Shown piece after piece: positions 3,364-19,957 of a DNA stretch of 23,556 nt. This DNA is from a virus. The notes under the pieces are model-generated. The model saw nothing but the letters and a program-made list of their open reading frames with translations. It was not told the origin of the DNA and searched no databases. Each line of letters opens with the position of its first letter. Positions within the stretch are counted from its first letter, which is position 1. Made by a program: the position numbers and the translations under genes. The stretch covers positions 1 to 23,556 of the IMG/VR virus record IMGVR_UViG_3300024265_000205. One strand, written 5' to 3'.

Positions 3364-4647
3364 TTAGAATTCAATGACTTCAATAGCAAGGAAACAAGAT
3401 AAGGAGTTTAAAGCAACCCCAGAATTCTGTTTCATAACGCCCTTGATGTAAGCGCCTCCATTAATGGTCCCGTCTAAAGGTGGGGTTACAATGTGTTGTC
3501 CACACTCTTGTTGGCCACTATCATTATCCCCACTTCTCTGAGCCACGGAGAATCGTTTTTCAAGGCTAGGAGTTCCGTCATAATAATCAAGATGGAGCCA
3601 TCTCCATGTTGATGGATTGGTAGTAGCCGGGATATTCCACAACACCCCAGCATAAGCCCGGAATTTTTTAACATTCGGAACATAAATGTAATTATCCGAT
3701 GGAGAATTAAATACTACGATTCCTTCTTGAAAGAAAACAGACCCGCCGCCACCACCACCCGTAGGAATTTCAATTTCTGTGTCATTTGCTACCGATAGGG
3801 CGCTGTTATCTCCCCCGGCTCCAATTGATAAAGGCGCAACGAATTTCTTATTACTCCCTACCAATTGCCATACATTGCTTGATGAGTCCACAAACATAAA
3901 CTCAAAAATATCTCCAGTTGCCACGGTAATATCATTTCCATATGGAAGAATAAGGCTAGAACTATTATGAGTAATTACATCTCCCCCGGCTCCAATAATT
4001 TCCAAGATAACAGTCATGCCCTTCTGAAAGAAGAAATGAGGACTTTGATAAAATCCCGCAAGAGTTGTGAAAGTTCCGTATTTGTAATATTTTTGTCCGG
4101 GTGTCAAGTCCATGTAATTTGCCGGGGTTCCTCCCAGACTTCCCGGACCACCGATAGCCATTGGCATATTAGTAGGTTCTGAATTGCTAATAAGCTCCCA
4201 ATAATCTGCGGCTGTCTTTCTGAAAGTTAATATTTGTCCAGAGGCCGCTGATATACTGGTGTTTGGTGATGCTGGTCGATAAATGTTCCCAGTCGCAAAA
4301 TTAAATCTGATCCTACCACTGGATATAAACATCATATCAAATTGTGTTCCTATCGGCGCTGTATCATTAATAAAAGTAGTTTTTACAAGAAACTGATTAA
4401 ATCCACTTGTCTGTTGGACCCGAAGAAAACTTGCTGTTCCATCACTGATAGAACTAATGTCCATGTTAACTGATAAATCATCTACCCCGACAGTAACCAC
4501 CCCGGACACAATCATTTTTGGAAATTGGGCTGGAACGAGCTTACTTGTGGCCGGATCAAGGTCCGCCTTCCAATCCACAAGGTCATTGATTTTTGTTCGT
4601 TGGATTTCTATTGTATCTGTTGCCTGTACGTAAATAGGTTCTGGCAT
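3364..4647 (-). CDS. Tail fibre / receptor-binding paralogue 3 (427 aa)
   Basis: The ATG overlaps the stop of the upstream fibre gene (TAATG at 4645-4649), indicating translational coupling. The N-terminal 45 residues (IEIQRTKINDLVDWKADLD, then a PAQFP segment) match those of the next two upstream genes, so this is probably the attachment module that plugs the protein into the baseplate or a fibre. The body is beta-rich and carries a repeated GD-I-x-EF...W-x-L-x-G pattern at about residues 132-153 and 242-264. A six-glycine hinge near residue 295 precedes a C-terminal domain of about 125 residues rich in aromatics, a plausible receptor-binding tip. No enzymatic motif is visible. A fibre function is inferred from architecture and position after the baseplate genes. 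Confidence 0.65.
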   Translation of the reverse strand: MPEPIYVQATDTIEIQRTKINDLVDWKADLDPATSKLVPAQFPKMIVSGVVTVGVDDLSVNMDISSISDGTASFLRVQQTSGFNQFLVKTTFINDTAPIGTQFDMMFISSGRIRFNFATGNIYRPASPNTSISAASGQILTFRKTAADYWELISNSEPTNMPMAIGGPGSLGGTPANYMDLTPGQKYYKYGTFTTLAGFYQSPHFFFQKGMTVILEIIGAGGDVITHNSSSLILPYGNDITVATGDIFEFMFVDSSSNVWQLVGSNKKFVAPLSIGAGGDNSALSVANDTEIEIPTGGGGGGSVFFQEGIVVFNSPSDNYIYVPNVKKFRAYAGVLWNIPATTNPSTWRWLHLDYYDGTPSLEKRFSVAQRSGDNDSGQQECGQHIVTPPLDGTINGGAYIKGVMKQNSGVALNSLSCFLAIEVIEF

Positions 4648-6530
4648 TACTCTATAATCTCCATCCAGAATTCTTTAATTTGATTTTTGGGCGGGTCTCC
4701 GTCTGGTTCTCCACCAAAATAAGAATCTAAAGAATACGTATCACCCTCTGATACCGGAATTGTTGGTGTTGTCATTAAAAGATTGTGATCAGGGTCCACC
4801 TGTCCATCACCAAAAGTCGCTTCTGACAAAATCACGTTTTGAGTAGAATTAAACTCTTGTATTGCTATCCATATTGGGTAATCAGAATCTTCTCCATCAA
4901 GTGTTTGGTTCCAGTCATTATCTACTGAAACGGGTCCATTAATATTGTCTCTGATAGATCGTAATGTTGAAATATTTGGGTGTTGATTACCCAGAAAAAA
5001 TCCATTTGCGGTTCCACTCTCAGTTGGAAATATTGCGCCAAGTTCTTCGGCATTTGCCGCTACTAATCTTACATAATTCCCAACACCCGGATCATTTTCA
5101 AAATCAAACAAGTAACTTGCATATTCCCCTTCATCTATAGCTCCAACAATCGGCGCATTAAAACTAAAAATTCCCGGAACAATATCGGCGTTTGCAATCG
5201 TTATAGTATCATTAGCTGTAACGATTGGATTATAATATGATCCTAATTTGGTTTCATCATATCCATAAATTTTCAAATCACCAGCCGCCGCCAAATTACC
5301 CACCACGGAATCAATTTTGAAATGAAGATATGTTACTGGGCCTACAGAAAAAATAGTTTGATTAAGCCATGTCACAGCACGAGACAAGTAATTCCCAGAC
5401 GGATTCCCAACAATTACTGTTTCTCCTAAAGTCCCAACATTTTCTGGTGTAAATTTGGCATAATTTTTAAGCAACCTGAATCCATAAACGTGTGGCTCAA
5501 GTTGTGTTGTACTGGGAGCATAAACCAATACCCCAAATCTAGCTTTAGTCACCCCGTCAGGGATTTTTATTTGTGTTGGTCCTGCAATATATGATGATTC
5601 GTAATTATATTTTATAGTTGCATTTCCAGCAAAGAAAGGTTCATAAGTAGCATCAGATACGGTTCGCAAATCACCATCTTGTATTACAACAGATTTTGTT
5701 GGTGGGAGTTGTGTTGATGATTTTCCCAACAAAACAAAAGTATCGGTTGATTCATTAATCTGAAGGAATGAAGCAACATCACCCGGCTGAAGAATAAAAT
5801 CCCGACCTTCTGGAAGTTGTAAAGTTGATGAGTTTATAACTGTTAATGATTTAGACGCCTCATCCAACACAATAAAGTGAACAGTTCCACGGTTGGTGTA
5901 TGCTTCCCCGCCAGTTGTTGGGTTACCAAACCCAGTAAACGTTTTATCATCCGCTGTAATGGTTACATGATGGATATTATAATCATATGATATGATGATG
6001 TTCCACGGTGATCCGGCATCACCAACGGAATATGTACTAGACCCCTGTGCGAATTTCTCTGGAATGTTCGTTCCTATAAAATGGAACTGGGATACTCCGG
6101 GGCTTATATAAATTTCCACAAAGACTAACTCAAGACCGGGAACGATATTTATTATAGCGGCCCCACTTCCTTCTGATCCGTAATTTGCTGGCATGACAAG
6201 GTTGCCGAATCTAGGGGTAATAAATCCAGTTGTCTCAAATCGGACAACAATTAACCGTGCATCTGTTTCTCCAGTAGACTTTTGTTCAATATCATAAATA
6301 AAATTTCCTGCAATAGCTGTAACGATAAGGAGGTTACCGTCATCATTATATTCTAATGTAGTACCATTCATAGCTACGCCAGTAGCTTCTACCAGACGTT
6401 GCTGACTCCAACCTTGAGCAACTTTCAGTCTTCCACCTATAGCAGTGAGTTGTCCCTTCTCATCAACCTGTTGATTGATTTTAGTACGTTGAATTTCAAA
6501 ATTGTCGCCGTCTAATATTTTATCCGTCAT
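4647..6530 (-). CDS. Tail fibre / receptor-binding paralogue 2 (627 aa)
   Basis: This starts 11 nt inside the end of the previous fibre gene, with GAGG upstream of the ATG at 6530. The first 45 residues (FEIQRTKINQQVDEKGQL, then GGRLKVAQGW) match the N terminus of the two neighbouring fibre genes. The body is beta-rich with two copies of the GD/PG...F...IG repeat (about residues 129-153 and 230-269). The C-terminal half (about residues 290-627) is unrelated to the neighbours by eye and is the longest of the three. No collagen-like repeats, protease or depolymerase motif could be recognised. It probably acts at the virion surface in host recognition; this is inference from position and the shared anchor. 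Confidence 0.65.
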   Translation of the reverse strand: MTDKILDGDNFEIQRTKINQQVDEKGQLTAIGGRLKVAQGWSQQRLVEATGVAMNGTTLEYNDDGNLLIVTAIAGNFIYDIEQKSTGETDARLIVVRFETTGFITPRFGNLVMPANYGSEGSGAAIINIVPGLELVFVEIYISPGVSQFHFIGTNIPEKFAQGSSTYSVGDAGSPWNIIISYDYNIHHVTITADDKTFTGFGNPTTGGEAYTNRGTVHFIVLDEASKSLTVINSSTLQLPEGRDFILQPGDVASFLQINESTDTFVLLGKSSTQLPPTKSVVIQDGDLRTVSDATYEPFFAGNATIKYNYESSYIAGPTQIKIPDGVTKARFGVLVYAPSTTQLEPHVYGFRLLKNYAKFTPENVGTLGETVIVGNPSGNYLSRAVTWLNQTIFSVGPVTYLHFKIDSVVGNLAAAGDLKIYGYDETKLGSYYNPIVTANDTITIANADIVPGIFSFNAPIVGAIDEGEYASYLFDFENDPGVGNYVRLVAANAEELGAIFPTESGTANGFFLGNQHPNISTLRSIRDNINGPVSVDNDWNQTLDGEDSDYPIWIAIQEFNSTQNVILSEATFGDGQVDPDHNLLMTTPTIPVSEGDTYSLDSYFGGEPDGDPPKNQIKEFWMEIIE

Positions 6531-7842
6531 AACCTAAAACCTCACAAGCAAGATGAGTAACAAAAACATTTCCTGTTTCATCAAATTCTTTAAATCCCCA
6601 CCTGATTTCATTATCCGATGTCACTAAGAAAGGGGGGGATTCAATACTAAAAGGAGCCGAAGAGTATACATATTTACTTTGAGACACGTTTGCTTCAAAG
6701 AATGGTGAACCACCATTATTACTTAAACGAATTACATGGTCGGCTTGTACCATCGAAATTGTTCCGTTAATCCACATCTTGGCATAGTATCCCACAGGAA
6801 GAATGAATCCAAATGTAGACGCTTTGATTATGGGAGGGTCTATATACACGACCGACCCACCAACCGAATCCGGATATACCCACGCATTATTAGAAGACAT
6901 GGAAATTGGTCCGGCAAAACCAGTATACAATGCTTTGGGGTTACCACCGGAAACAGACCGTGACATCCCGATACATTTCCATATACTGACAGAATCATCA
7001 AAAATATATTCTAACACATCTCCGGTTTTGGTTAATATGTCAGCCCCTCCAGATTGCCAAAATCCATCGGAGGTATGTTGTAAAGTAATATTCGGTGATT
7101 GTATATGGAGAGCTATTCGTTGACCATCAGTTGTTGTGCCTGTTATATCTAAAATAGTATATGCCATTCCATCTGTGGTTGATACTGTTACATATGTTTT
7201 ATCATATCCAGTATCAATCCAACTAATAGTCCTGACTCCACCCCCAGCCGATAACACAAATTCAAAACTTTTGACTCGGTGTATGTAATTGTTAGGTGCG
7301 GCCATACCACCAATTGGTTGAAGCACCCACTTGGTAGAATTCCACACAAACTTATAAACATGGTAAAGACCATCAGCAGTAGAACGAATCAACTCTGGAT
7401 ATCCTGATAGAGTTAAAATATTTGCGGATGGACCTTCAGGGGTAATATATTTGACTCCGGGTACTTTAGCTTCTGGATCATTATCAAGTTGGAGATAAAG
7501 AATCTGACCCGTTTCGGGAACTATTATTTGGTCGGCGTCATTATATACTTCAATTTCATTAATCCGTGTAGTTGAAATCCAATCTGCGGCTGGTACTTTG
7601 ACTATTTGATCCCCAAGGTCTCCAATATAAACCTTGACAATCAAATACGTTCCTGTATCCGTCCCCGTTCCTTTCTGGGGTTGAAGCGCTCTGGTCAGGG
7701 GTGGATTATCAGGAGCCTGAGCGATAATCAGACGGCCACCGTTAGCGATGGTATCATCAAGATCGGCTTTATAATCAACCATCTCATTAATAAGGTTCCT
7801 CTGAGCCCGAAATGTGGCCCGTGCGGTGATTTTATCAGCCAT
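6520..7842 (-). CDS. Tail fibre / receptor-binding paralogue 1 (440 aa)
   Basis: The ATG at 7842 lies 8 nt inside the end of the small coiled-coil gene; a GAGGGG further upstream could serve as a ribosome binding site. The N terminus (FRAQRNLINEMVDYKADLDD, then GGRLIIAQAP) is shared with the two downstream genes. A GDVLEYIFDD...WKCIG unit at about residues 272-292 is the same beta repeat seen in the paralogues. The C-terminal 140 residues form a separate beta-rich domain. It is the first of the three fibre genes transcribed, directly after the baseplate genes, consistent with a distal tail appendage. The exact role is not established. Confidence 0.65.
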   Translation of the reverse strand: MADKITARATFRAQRNLINEMVDYKADLDDTIANGGRLIIAQAPDNPPLTRALQPQKGTGTDTGTYLIVKVYIGDLGDQIVKVPAADWISTTRINEIEVYNDADQIIVPETGQILYLQLDNDPEAKVPGVKYITPEGPSANILTLSGYPELIRSTADGLYHVYKFVWNSTKWVLQPIGGMAAPNNYIHRVKSFEFVLSAGGGVRTISWIDTGYDKTYVTVSTTDGMAYTILDITGTTTDGQRIALHIQSPNITLQHTSDGFWQSGGADILTKTGDVLEYIFDDSVSIWKCIGMSRSVSGGNPKALYTGFAGPISMSSNNAWVYPDSVGGSVVYIDPPIIKASTFGFILPVGYYAKMWINGTISMVQADHVIRLSNNGGSPFFEANVSQSKYVYSSAPFSIESPPFLVTSDNEIRWGFKEFDETGNVFVTHLACEVLGYDG

Positions 7843-15878: not shown

Positions 15879-17453
15879 TTACGGTCCAAGAGATGACCAC
15901 ATTTCGTCTTGACTATTAAATCCCTGCGTCATGAATGTGGGAGCAGATGCGTTTTGTTGAAGCACATTAATAGGTGGTGTACTCACTGGAGCAAAAAGTC
16001 CCGGCCCCGCCAGCATTTCTGTCTGTGCCCCGGTTGCTTGGGCTCCCCGTGCAATCTTTATAGCCTGAGCTTCTTCAGCCATAACCCCACGGGCCGCCGT
16101 AACATCAGCTTTCATAGCGGAAGCAAAATCTTTGATACTCGCACCAATACCCGGAACAAAATCCAGTTTTTCCCCTACCCACAACAGTACGCTGGCCAGA
16201 GCATCCTTGATGGTGATGAAAAATTGTTTAACCGGTTCCATGATGTAATCGTGCCACACCGTTTTCATGAAATCTTTCATGGTCTTTAGGAGTTCTCCGT
16301 CTGTAATGAATGACCAAAACTCTTTGATAGTATCAAGAACGTTATTCCACCCAGCTATAAACTTTTGTCTGGTATTTTCAATAAGCTTGGCAACAGTTTC
16401 ACCATCCAACAAACCAAAAGTGAGTCCTGAAATAATACCACCAATAGCCGCTTCCATCTTCTGAATAAGTCCAGCCCCTTCACCAAAAATTCCCTCAGCC
16501 GCCATAAATCCTGAGATAGCGTCCCATGCTGTCATAAGAATAGTAATAGGTAAAAATATCTTTCCAAGGAATTTTCCAAGGCCGCCACCCAATTTCAACA
16601 TCCGGGCAACTACCGGGTTCTTGGCGATAAGACCCCCAACCCTTGATAGAAGTTTCCATATATCATCGAAGTATCGGGTAACTGGTTTGAACACTTTCAA
16701 TATCATCTGTCCAAATTTGGATTCCTTAATAAAGACAAGTATCTTAGCGAAGGGTTTTAGTACCCAACCAAAAAGTATTTTTAGATTTTTCTTTACCTCA
16801 ATTACAAACTCTGAAGCCATAGCAAGCGCAAATGCTCCAGCCGCCAATAGAAGAATAGTGATGGGACCGAACATTCCACCCAATATACCCCCCAGAGCTT
16901 CTAGGAGAGGATTTTTCTTCTTACCCGGCTCTTCACCCCCGGCACCTGATATAGCGGCTTCTAAGGAATCTGAAGAAGCCTGAACAGCTTCCTTGATTGC
17001 TTCCTGTGTATCTTGAAAGTCATCTACGAAAAATCTACGCATCATTCGCATTTCTTCCCAGATACGGGTAAAGACAGGCGTTTGTTTCTTACGTTCAACG
17101 TGGGCCTTCTTGACTTCTTCTACCGTTTCTTTGGTAGCCATGGCTGTCTGTTGATCCGCCTCGTTCCCCTCATCTTTCTCAGCACCCAAACCCAACACAG
17201 CTTTAACGGACTCTGCCAATGGCCCGGTGAACAAATTGGCAAGAGATTTAATTTTAGCGGCCGCAAAATCATGGACCAAACCCAGTTCTTCTTTAGAAGT
17301 TTCCGCCACAACACCAAAAGAATTTCTCACAGCATTGCTCATATCACCCACAGACTGTTTGATAGCATTGCTCATCTCTTCAGCAACAGGCTTAAAGGCG
17401 GCCACGGCTTCTTTTGCCATATTCGCTCTGGCGGTGTCATCTGCTCTTGCCAT
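15879..17453 (-). CDS. 29: Tail tape measure protein, gp29-like (524 aa)
   Basis: The ATG at 17453 overlaps the stop of the frameshift extension (TAATG), with AAGGAG about 12 nt upstream. The product is almost entirely helical, starts with an alanine-rich amphipathic region, has a strongly hydrophobic stretch at about residues 196-222 (ITILLLAAGAFALAMASEF) and further hydrophobic glycine-rich segments around residues 285-345, and ends in a low-complexity alanine/proline/glutamine tail. This is the usual make-up of a tape measure that sets tail length and later crosses the host membrane. At 524 aa it is slightly shorter than T4 gp29 (590 aa), so a slightly shorter tail than T4 is expected. Position between chaperone-like genes and gp48 matches this role. 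Confidence 0.75.
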   Translation of the reverse strand: MARADDTARANMAKEAVAAFKPVAEEMSNAIKQSVGDMSNAVRNSFGVVAETSKEELGLVHDFAAAKIKSLANLFTGPLAESVKAVLGLGAEKDEGNEADQQTAMATKETVEEVKKAHVERKKQTPVFTRIWEEMRMMRRFFVDDFQDTQEAIKEAVQASSDSLEAAISGAGGEEPGKKKNPLLEALGGILGGMFGPITILLLAAGAFALAMASEFVIEVKKNLKILFGWVLKPFAKILVFIKESKFGQMILKVFKPVTRYFDDIWKLLSRVGGLIAKNPVVARMLKLGGGLGKFLGKIFLPITILMTAWDAISGFMAAEGIFGEGAGLIQKMEAAIGGIISGLTFGLLDGETVAKLIENTRQKFIAGWNNVLDTIKEFWSFITDGELLKTMKDFMKTVWHDYIMEPVKQFFITIKDALASVLLWVGEKLDFVPGIGASIKDFASAMKADVTAARGVMAEEAQAIKIARGAQATGAQTEMLAGPGLFAPVSTPPINVLQQNASAPTFMTQGFNSQDEMWSSLGP

Positions 17454-18339
17454 TATTTTTTAGCTCCTTCTTCTAATGCCTTCTGGCGTTCCTTTTCAGA
17501 CTTAATATAGAGGTTCAGATAAATCTCTCGTTCAAATGGATACATCTCCATGATATCACCAAGCTGAAGTCCTGCCCAGAATTGGAGAGTGTGTATGATT
17601 TCATACAGCGCCTTTAATGTAATATCACCACTAAAGGCTAGGAGAGAAAAAAAGCGGCCGCTTCCTCCAGCGCAAGGTCTCTTTCCTTGGCTTCACAGTG
17701 TCCACACTTCACTATCTTATTTACAATAATACGTGGAGACTTCTGACCATACTCTTTAGTATACTTCTCAAAAAGCTTCGGTGGAAGATTCTCTACCCAC
17801 TCTTGAATTTCATCCGGGGTAAACTCATCACTGACAGTTTCCCCCTCCACGATGTTCTTGATGGAGTAAGCAAGCACTTTGTAATTACGTTCTATCTCTG
17901 AAATCCCTTTGAGTTTGCTGACCAAACCATTGGTCGGCCATTTCAAATTAACGGTCCAATCATCCAATTGGATAGGGTCAGGGTCCGCTATCCTGAATTC
18001 CAATTCTTCGTTCGTGTCCAGCGTGTCTCGATTGATCCCCTGACACTCTTCGCATTTCCATGCGAAAGCTATAATATCCCCTTTACCTTTTTGACGAATA
18101 CGAATAAGAAGATAGTTCGTATCCACGGGAGTCATCTCATTATCCACATCCACGTCCTGAACACAATTACGGACAATACTTTCTACAGCACTCATGATCT
18201 TATCTTCTTCTTCCGTCTCCACGGCTAGAAGGAATTCTTTTTCCTCCTTCGTAGTATACGGGCGATACCTGACAATTTTATCAGGATTTGATAATAAACT
18301 CTCTTCAAAAAAATTCACATCATGTTTTGGTAAAGACAT
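17453..18339 (-). CDS. Predicted -1 frameshift fusion: gp26-family protein plus C-terminal extension (295 aa)
   Basis: Downstream of the 233-aa gene, the -1 frame stays open from the slippery run to a stop at 17453-17455 and encodes 64 residues of clearly protein-like sequence (LKALYEIIHTLQFWAGLQL, then GDIMEMYPFEREIYLNL and a basic/acidic helix). No start codon with a ribosome binding site precedes this segment: the only ATGs come halfway through and lack a Shine-Dalgarno sequence. Slippage at T TTT TTT (17653-17647) would give 231 shared residues plus 64 new ones. The fusion stop overlaps the tape measure start as TAATG. This equals the lambda G/GT layout, in which the longer chaperone recruits the tape measure. 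The frameshift is predicted, not shown. Confidence 0.7.
17610..17638 (-). promoter_or_regulatory. Stem-loop stimulating the predicted -1 frameshift
   Basis: On the minus strand GCCTTTAGTG pairs with CATTAAAGGC (10 bp including one G-T wobble) around a 9-nt loop. It starts 8 nt after the slippery heptamer, within the 5-9 nt spacing typical of -1 frameshift signals. The stop codon of the unshifted frame ends immediately before the stem begins or overlaps it by one base. Confidence 0.7.
17638..18339 (-). CDS. 26: T4 gp26-family baseplate/tail assembly protein (233 aa), unshifted product
   Basis: The ATG at 18339 has GGAGGG upstream. Length is near T4 gp26 (208 aa). Landmarks of the T4 baseplate hub (gp26) family are visible: an N-terminal KIVRYRPYTTKEEKEFLLA segment (residues 21-39), an AVESIVRNCV helix (51-60), then DTNYLLIRIRQKGKGDII (73-90). 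Two CxxC pairs, C96/C99 and C212/C215, could form a zinc site. Residues 125-200 form a helical domain. gp26 is needed to build the T4 hub, and its biochemical role is unclear; here its place just upstream of the tape measure with a frameshift at its end suggests that the family works as the tape measure chaperone. The reading ends LEEAAAFFLS. Confidence 0.8.
   Translation of the reverse strand: MSLPKHDVNFFEESLLSNPDKIVRYRPYTTKEEKEFLLAVETEEEDKIMSAVESIVRNCVQDVDVDNEMTPVDTNYLLIRIRQKGKGDIIAFAWKCEECQGINRDTLDTNEELEFRIADPDPIQLDDWTVNLKWPTNGLVSKLKGISEIERNYKVLAYSIKNIVEGETVSDEFTPDEIQEWVENLPPKLFEKYTKEYGQKSPRIIVNKIVKCGHCEAKERDLALEEAAAFFLS
17647..17653 (-). promoter_or_regulatory. Slippery heptamer for -1 frameshifting (T TTT TTT)
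   Basis: Seven T residues on the minus strand are set in the X XXY YYZ frame of the gp26-family gene (codons TTT TTT, phenylalanines 230 and 231), followed by CTC TCC TAG. A perfect heptamer two codons before a stop and 8 nt before a hairpin is the classic arrangement. A poly-T run could also cause some transcriptional slippage. Confidence 0.75.
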
Positions 18340-18341
18340 GA

Positions 18342-18635
18342 TTAACCCTCCTTTTTATTCGCTTCAACAATTTTAACCCATAGATCATCCACTATACTCC
18401 CAGTACAAACAATAATAAACATACAACAGACCAAAACGACTAAAGCAGTAATCGCTTCATTAAAACTAAGTTCAATAAAATTTTCTCCCGAAGTAAGATA
18501 CCCCCACATATTCCCGAAGCCCATAAACCCAAAGAGGCAAAACGTACCTATACCAAATCCATGAGCAAGCGTAGCACCCACATACTTGGCGATTAATATT
18601 CTAGGTATCTTGGTTAAATCAATTTTAGAAAACAT
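18342..18635 (-). CDS. Small two-helix membrane protein in the tail cluster (97 aa)
   Basis: The ATG at 18635 is preceded by CAAGGAG and is the first gene after a late promoter. Two hydrophobic segments, about residues 17-45 (with GFGIGTFCLFGFMGF) and 60-82 (with ITALVVLVCCMFIIVC), are separated by a short polar loop; the N terminus is basic and the C terminus charged (VEANKKEG). This is the outline of a class II holin, but many unrelated small membrane proteins look the same. No signal-anchor-release feature is evident. It is unusual to find a membrane protein between tail tube and tail chaperone genes. Only 2 nt separate it from the gp26-family gene. Confidence 0.65.
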   Translation of the reverse strand: MFSKIDLTKIPRILIAKYVGATLAHGFGIGTFCLFGFMGFGNMWGYLTSGENFIELSFNEAITALVVLVCCMFIIVCTGSIVDDLWVKIVEANKKEG

Positions 18636-18699: not shown

Positions 18700-19407
18700 T
18701 TACTTTTTAAGGAGAGCGGTTAATGATGAGGGGGGTGGAATGGCAGTCCGGAGAAGTGCTGATAATCCTCCGGGTGTTACCATACCGTGCTCTTTATAGA
18801 CATAACGGTCATAATCGAAAGTTGTTTGGAAGGACGCAAATTCATTCTCACTAGCATGGGCCAATGGAAGATCACCCAAAACTGAAGGAAAGCATCCCTC
18901 AAAAATGATCTCTACCGCTGGTTGTTGATAATCATTATAAATAACAATCCGCATTGTAGATTTATATTCATTCGGGAACAGTCGGTAAGGATTAGAATCA
19001 TTCTGATCAATAGCGAACATCCACCAATACATAAAACGACGGAGAGCCCCATCCCTATCATGGAAGAAATCCACATTCAGGGTATCATAACTCTTCATCA
19101 TAGCAACCGTGCGGATACGGCTATTAATCCTTTGCTTTTCTGTCTCTAAATTAATGGATGGAACAGACACACCTTTACAGTAGACCCCCTGTACCAAATG
19201 CATGGCAGAGGACTGTAAAGCCTTCCATCTCAGTTCATCCATATGACGTTTCATTAGATATTCGAAATTTGTGGACCCCATTTTTAACACGCTTGGGGAC
19301 ACGTCAATATGAAATGAAAAATGATGTGCCCGTGTCAGCCCAAATCGGGCTAGGTCCACGGGCACAAGAACTGAGAATCGGGCCAATTCTAAGAGATTAA
19401 ACGCCAT
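18700..19407 (-). CDS. Tail-tube-fold protein (gp19/gp54-like), 235 aa
   Basis: The ATG at 19407 has AGAGGTGAGG upstream, 13 nt after the tube gene. The central part, CKGVSVPSINLETE, then TVAMMKSYDTLNVDFFHDRD, FMYWWMF and STMRIVIYND...VEIIFEGCFPS, reproduces the strand and loop order of tail tube proteins (a 'gp19-type' beta barrel), though it is longer than the tube protein next to it. It could be a tube initiator such as gp54, a tube-sheath adaptor, or a minor second tube protein. The direct position after gp19 favours a tube-associated role. Start choice is firm; the exact T4 counterpart is not. Confidence 0.65.
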   Translation of the reverse strand: MAFNLLELARFSVLVPVDLARFGLTRAHHFSFHIDVSPSVLKMGSTNFEYLMKRHMDELRWKALQSSAMHLVQGVYCKGVSVPSINLETEKQRINSRIRTVAMMKSYDTLNVDFFHDRDGALRRFMYWWMFAIDQNDSNPYRLFPNEYKSTMRIVIYNDYQQPAVEIIFEGCFPSVLGDLPLAHASENEFASFQTTFDYDRYVYKEHGMVTPGGLSALLRTAIPPPSSLTALLKK

Positions 19408-19420
19408 ATGGCCTCACCTC

Positions 19421-19957
19421 TTAGTCTAGCGGGAAGAAGTAATCATATGCGTAAGTCACGTTGAACTCTTCGATAGTGCTTTCCGCTGAAGTATCATAAG
19501 CGACTTCGCTGATATCTGTCGGCCAGAGGCCATTCAGTTGAACACTATAAAGAACTTCTCCAGCCTCATCCAGTTGATGGACTTCGGCTCCACCTTTGTA
19601 AAGCTGTGGCTCTGAAGCAACGTTGGTTACGGGATCACGAACAAGGTGCATCCATGAAAGCATCGTCTTATATGCACCGAACTTCTTGTCAAGCCAGAAC
19701 CCACATGGCCACTCCGCAAAAGTGGGGTCTCCGGATAGACGAATTTTCATCCCCCTATGGTAAACCGCATCAATGGGAGCAATGTTCATATTCGGGATAG
19801 ACGCAGACTTCACCATAAAGCTCAGTGTTTCACCCGTGGCCGCATCACCCGGAACTGATAGCCCCGGAGGAAGCTGGAAAATGACTTCGAAGAGGTTCTG
19901 ACGTGCCCCCGGCCCAAACTGGGCCTTGAACCTTTCAATTGAGTTTTTACTTGCCAT
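19421..19957 (-). CDS. 19: Tail tube protein, T4 gp19-like (178 aa)
   Basis: The ATG at 19957 has AAAGGAGAAAG upstream. Length is close to T4 gp19 (163 aa). The beginning (IERFKAQFGPGARQNLFEV), the SASIPNMNIAPID segment around residue 52 followed by YHRGMKIRLSGDPTFAEW, and the FGAYKTMLSWMH helix are standard gp19 tube landmarks, as is the end with AYDYFFP. Hexamer rings of this protein form the inner tail tube that guides DNA. It is transcribed with the sheath gene directly before it, the same 18-19 order as in T4. Confidence 0.9.
   Translation of the reverse strand: MASKNSIERFKAQFGPGARQNLFEVIFQLPPGLSVPGDAATGETLSFMVKSASIPNMNIAPIDAVYHRGMKIRLSGDPTFAEWPCGFWLDKKFGAYKTMLSWMHLVRDPVTNVASEPQLYKGGAEVHQLDEAGEVLYSVQLNGLWPTDISEVAYDTSAESTIEEFNVTYAYDYFFPLD

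Follow-up and report, generated by a model that had tools for sequence, protein, structure and literature searches.

The T4 gp26-family gene in the 23,556-nt stretch of viral DNA analysed here (the window) very probably undergoes -1 ribosomal frameshifting close to its end, and would in this way encode both a short and a gp51-type long tail assembly chaperone of the G/GT type. The gene for the short chaperone form ('TAC-N', 233 aa) lies at positions 17638-18339 of the minus strand, and its assignment to the gp26 family, already proposed in an earlier note made from the letters of the window, was borne out by matches to PF12322 (T4_baseplate; 4.6e-34) and PHROG 150 (1e-31). The protein is a divergent member of the family, with identities to the sampled relatives not exceeding 29%, and no close relatives of it were found in viral contigs. 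The gene ends with GCC GCT TTT TTT CTC TCC TAG; the in-frame slippery heptamer T_TTT_TTT that had been claimed two codons ahead of the stop occurs at exactly those bases (17653-17647, minus strand), with two sense codons between it and the zero-frame stop TAG (17638-17640).

In-frame heptamers of the form X_XXY_YYZ occurred 26 times in the 19 minus-strand genes of the window, and this site was the sole one whose -1 frame ran past the zero-frame stop. When the downstream sequence was randomised, an open -1 frame of 64 codons arose by chance in 0.8% of trials. The extension in this frame ('TAC-C'; 17456-17647, minus strand, 64 codons), which would bring the fusion (long form) to 295 aa, was a homologue of the domain that ends T4 gp51: it matched PHROG 634 (2.3e-9), the 'baseplate hub assembly catalyst' or T4 gp51 family, as well as the last 50 positions of PHROG 150 (positions 231-281; 5.7e-4). 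As the earlier note had described, the frame is open for 64 residues and closes in a TAATG (17451-17455, minus strand), in which its stop TAA (17455-17453) shares one base with the ATG (17453-17451) of the tail tape measure gene. The latter (15879-17453, minus strand; 524 aa) was recognised by PHROG 58, a tape measure family (9e-7), and PHROG 1272 (2e-5), and the chaperone gene is therefore directly upstream of the tape measure gene in the window; a single small gene stands between the two in Caulobacter phage Cr30 and in Pelagibacter phage HTVC008M.

Some other genes of the same strand also drew attention. A small protein of 97 aa, apparently membrane-spanning and with no PHROG match, is encoded at 18342-18635, between a tube-like gene and the gp26-family gene. 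Two adjacent genes, at 18700-19407 and 19421-19957, encode tail tube-like proteins, both of PHROG 45; the product of the former may be a tube initiator (gp54-like), and a gp54-like gene precedes gp26 in some phages. Further away, three consecutive large genes (3364-7842) share a similar N-terminal motif, about QRTKIN..VD.K, and probably encode paralogous virion attachment proteins.

The decisive support for the predicted frameshift site came from its conservation in relatives, for which 214 gp26-family loci were collected, on the searched strand, from scans of viral contigs and phage records. An in-frame T_TTT_TTN was located within the last codons near the gp26 stop in 210 of the 214 loci, most commonly as TTTTTTC (132/210), and all of the 203 complete -1 extensions, that is, those ending within the locus, were 52-70 aa long; extensions in the +1 frame at the same loci measured 1-31 aa. 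The alignment of relatives proposed in the earlier note thus returned a conserved site and a conserved extension. The heptamer was missing from four loci: T4, the truncated contig L080, and Stenotrophomonas phage IME-SM1 in two copies (L011 and L214). The latter lack one base of the slippery run relative to the sister genome L213, and their annotated gene goes on for about 28 codons in another frame; a +1 shift was considered for this phage and discarded, a one-base indel, probably from sequencing, being likelier because L213 keeps an intact heptamer. Homopolymer runs are indeed error-prone, and the missing base in IME-SM1 is a case in point; that the window itself carries a sequencing error or a pseudogene, gp26 and the extension being truly one frame, is nevertheless hardly credible, since the same frame break recurs in more than 200 loci from many assemblies, forming 93 clusters at 60% identity.

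Codon constraint was tested over these 93 clusters, which were picked after the heptamer had been discovered, though merely 4 of the 214 loci lacked it. The codon before TTT always ended in T, despite a varying residue (S, D, N, A, T, G or F), against an expected frequency of 0.61 (log10 P -21, a value which, like the P values given below, overstates strength and independence because the 93 clusters share ancestry). The first Phe codon of the slip site was likewise always TTT (0.73 elsewhere), and most clusters had a -1 frame that was open for only a few codons ahead of the site.

A Shine-Dalgarno-like GGAGGAA (17662-17668, minus strand), a candidate 5' frameshift stimulator with a predicted anti-Shine-Dalgarno duplex of -9.3 kcal/mol, precedes the site in the window, with 10 nt between the GGAGG core and the heptamer. 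In most relatives the codons -6 to -4 before the site encode L-E-G; the Glu at that spot was GAG in 36 of 55 cases (28% elsewhere; P 3e-9) and 32 of 66 Leu codons had G as their last base (27% elsewhere; P 1e-4). Over the 93 clusters, mean pairing to the anti-Shine-Dalgarno sequence exceeded that of synonymous recodings by 1.4 kcal/mol (z about -10), and a duplex of -4 kcal/mol or better was present in 81% of clusters at the site vs. 9% in a control stretch. These patterns indicate that a Shine-Dalgarno-like element, placed some 10 nt ahead of the heptamer, is conserved beyond the constraint exerted by the protein.

The length and phase of the T run bear on a different origin for the long form, namely RNA polymerase slippage rather than ribosomal frameshifting. 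The window, with its run of seven T, would lend itself to this explanation, but most relatives have six T followed by C, A or G, below the runs of about nine associated with transcript slippage in bacteria (PMC5009743), and the heptamer keeps a fixed phase and the Shine-Dalgarno-like element a constant distance, both of which fit slippage by the ribosome; we regard the transcriptional route as very improbable.

The extension could also be an independent small gene, with a start of its own or translated by re-initiation after the gp26 stop, as in the public annotation ('baseplate hub assembly catalyst'). Public records do contain separate gp51 genes with internal starts, an ATG overlaps the gp26 stop in Cr30 and phiM9, and in the window codon 33 of the extension (17551-17549) is an ATG; the earlier note had held that the extension lacks a usable start, and in fact no ATG, GTG or TTG stands in frame before that codon. 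Against an independent gene, the first ATG of the extension fell at codon 18-19 in 60 of the 93 clusters and at codon 25 or later, or was absent, in 14, and in those clusters it follows the conserved block LSHxSLxNYYxxNF. Since the first ATG mostly comes after the conserved block, an independent start cannot explain the conservation, and it would leave both the heptamer and the codon-level constraint unexplained. Homologues in which the 64-aa segment forms a gene by itself, start included, had been named in the earlier note as evidence against a frameshift, but the relatives did not refute it: in most of them the conserved first half precedes any ATG, and the full separate genes that do bear the segment, T4 gene 51 and that of Vibrio phage Va1, also hold a gp26-like domain, which is what a frameshift product would have. 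An independent gene is accordingly very unlikely, if slightly less so than polymerase slippage. The three explanations were rejected on the ATG positions of the extension (independent start), the length and phase of the T run (transcriptional slippage) and the recurrence in more than 200 loci (sequencing error).

The same starts explain a peculiarity of current annotations. The cyanophage 'gp51' is only about 20% as long as T4 gp51 (PMC3037559), because the annotated stretch is the start-codon-bearing part of the predicted frameshift extension. The cyanophage and pelagiphage genes recorded as 'baseplate hub assembly catalyst' (L002:2286-2399, L004:2283-2387, L005:2253-2390 and similar ones) are truncated -1 extensions with internal starts, and in some records (L003, L008) the extension region is without any annotation. 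The annotation of several hundred T4-like genomes could be corrected on this basis.

Downstream of the heptamer, the 8-nt spacer (17639-17646) and the 10-bp hairpin (17610-17638) reported in the earlier note were both recovered on the minus strand. The hairpin, a candidate 3' stimulator with a 9-nt loop, had a predicted energy of -13.5 kcal/mol (z -2.25) and is followed at once by a second one of 6 bp (17592-17607, minus strand); the 57-nt stretch folded with both of them reached -18.4 kcal/mol (z -4.46), with 1 of 200 shuffles equally good. Across the family, downstream structure was modest (mean z -0.9 vs. -0.2 in a control stretch). The hairpins were therefore set aside as a family-wide signal, and that of the window may be lineage-specific or incidental because such structure is just modestly conserved.

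Protein structure was compared by means of predicted models. The AlphaFold2 model of the window gp26-family protein (pLDDT 90.5) had both chains of 2ob9, the tail assembly chaperone gp13 of HK97, as its first and fourth best matches among 350,542 PDB chains, although not significantly (E 2.0-2.6, TM 0.36-0.37); with an E of 2 and a TM of 0.36, the fold match is suggestive only. A T4-type gp51 model gave no HK97 chaperone match of that kind among PDB folds, the T4 gp51 sequence matched none of the solved structures, and the gp26 profile gave chance-level matches only against them. Among predicted viral structures there were clear matches to gp26-family proteins of many myoviruses, and the extension was helical in the T4-type gp51 model (L219).

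In T4 the two products appear to be distributed over two genes. The N-terminal 200 residues of gp51 matched PF12322 and PHROG 150 and its C-terminus matched PHROG 634, and for this reason it can be read as the long form contained in one gene; gp26 ends (GLKEFFELL) close to where the zero-frame products end, and gp51 runs on into the extension domain. T4 gp26 and gp51 are paralogues, the former resembling the short form and the latter the long one. The slippery heptamer is absent from both T4 genes, which read GAG TTC TTT (gene 26) and GAC GTG TTT (gene 51). In the tree built on the domain common to both, T4-type gp26 and gp51 each formed one supported group, and these fell, at an open fork (91/86), together with two phages that frameshift, LPCS28 of Cronobacter and Ahp1 of Aeromonas; a single duplication from a frameshifting ancestor is the likely source of the T4 pair. 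Vibrio phage Va1 (L225:1305-2647) has tandem gp26-like and gp51-like genes, two bases apart, with no slippery heptamer in either; the first reads GGA TTC TTC and the second bears the extension domain. They grouped together (99/83), on two very long branches whose joining may be false, hinting at a possible separate duplication that replaced the frameshift. In T4, gp51 is needed for baseplate assembly and is absent from the particle, and gp26 and gp51 have been named hub assembly chaperones (PMC3004832). Our results support regarding these two proteins, long called hub assembly proteins without a clear function, as the equivalents in T4 of gpG and gpGT in lambda.

Ribosomal frameshifting at the gp26-family gene is thus the reading that we retain, and from the computed site, frame, homology and conservation we infer slippage and its efficiency, the roles of the Shine-Dalgarno-like element and the hairpin, and binding to the tape measure, as follows. 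The 233-aa short form would come from the majority of ribosomes, which would halt at TAG (17640-17638). The others, a minority whose two tRNAs sit on TTT TTT, would slip back one base at T_TTT_TTT, probably aided by the GGAGGAA 10 nt upstream, paired with the anti-Shine-Dalgarno sequence, and by the downstream hairpin(s), and would continue to the 295-aa long form, which ends in a gp51-type domain. If lambda gpG/gpGT is a guide, the tape measure protein, product of the very next gene, would be coated by both forms, which would also recruit tail tube subunits and depart before completion of the tail. The G/GT-type reading of the earlier note is therefore supported at the sequence level, through the homology of the extension to the gp51 C-terminal domain and the retention of site, frame and extension across the T4 superfamily.

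Vladimirov, Gautam and Davidson (Virology 2022) reportedly identified the tail assembly chaperone genes of T4-like phages, and their abstract is said to state that several groups of T4-like phages retain the frameshift and that genes 26 and 51 are those used by T4. In passages citing that work, the PRFect paper mentions that a short gene and a fused long gene take the place of frameshifting in some T4-like phages (PMC10885494), and the paper on phage Adele mentions that TAC-N genes of T4-like phages have poly-T signals for a -1 frameshift (PMC12846349). The window gene is a new, divergent example of this already published type, and the remark of the earlier note that it knew of no published frameshift in the gp26 family is out of date because that of the T4-like chaperones appeared in 2022. 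The conserved Shine-Dalgarno-like element may be the new part of the finding: no report of it in T4-like chaperone genes was met in the literature searched, a search that did not extend to Vladimirov et al. 2022, and 5' stimulators of this kind are established for dnaX and many IS elements (PMC5009743). We lean, by a narrow preference, towards viewing the chaperone gene of the T4 superfamily as a three-part frameshift cassette, in which the Shine-Dalgarno-like sequence about 10 nt before T_TTT_TTN would be selected as a stimulator setting the short-to-long ratio, and which the T4 lineage (and perhaps, separately, that of Vibrio phage Va1) would have swapped for gene duplication. The element offers a directly testable handle on that ratio.

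Compared with known systems, the predicted arrangement resembles E. coli dnaX in its 5' Shine-Dalgarno stimulator, slippery heptamer and 3' hairpin (PMC5009743), but the heptamer is A_AAA_AAG in dnaX and T_TTT_TTN in the phage gene, and frameshifting in the phage gives the longer product. Among frameshifted tail chaperones, T4 was still the exception in a 2016 review (PMC5009743). With lambda gpG/gpGT the window gene shares a short form, a predicted -1 extended form and a position directly upstream of the tape measure gene. Xu, Hendrix and Duda (2004) reportedly described tail chaperones with a -1 frameshift, those of lambda among them. The T4-like family differs from the lambda type in its T_TTT_TTN, in a zero-frame stop usually 0-1 codons away and in the Shine-Dalgarno-like 5' element, and the window protein had no significant fold match to the one solved chaperone (HK97 gp13, 2ob9). 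T4 has two separate, divergently oriented genes and the window one gene with a heptamer, no split arrangement being seen within this 23.6-kb fragment; T4 gp26 resembles the short form of the window and gp51 the full long form. The T4-like chaperones of Vladimirov et al. 2022, to judge from the abstract, belong to the same gene family as the window gene and follow the same two-form scheme.
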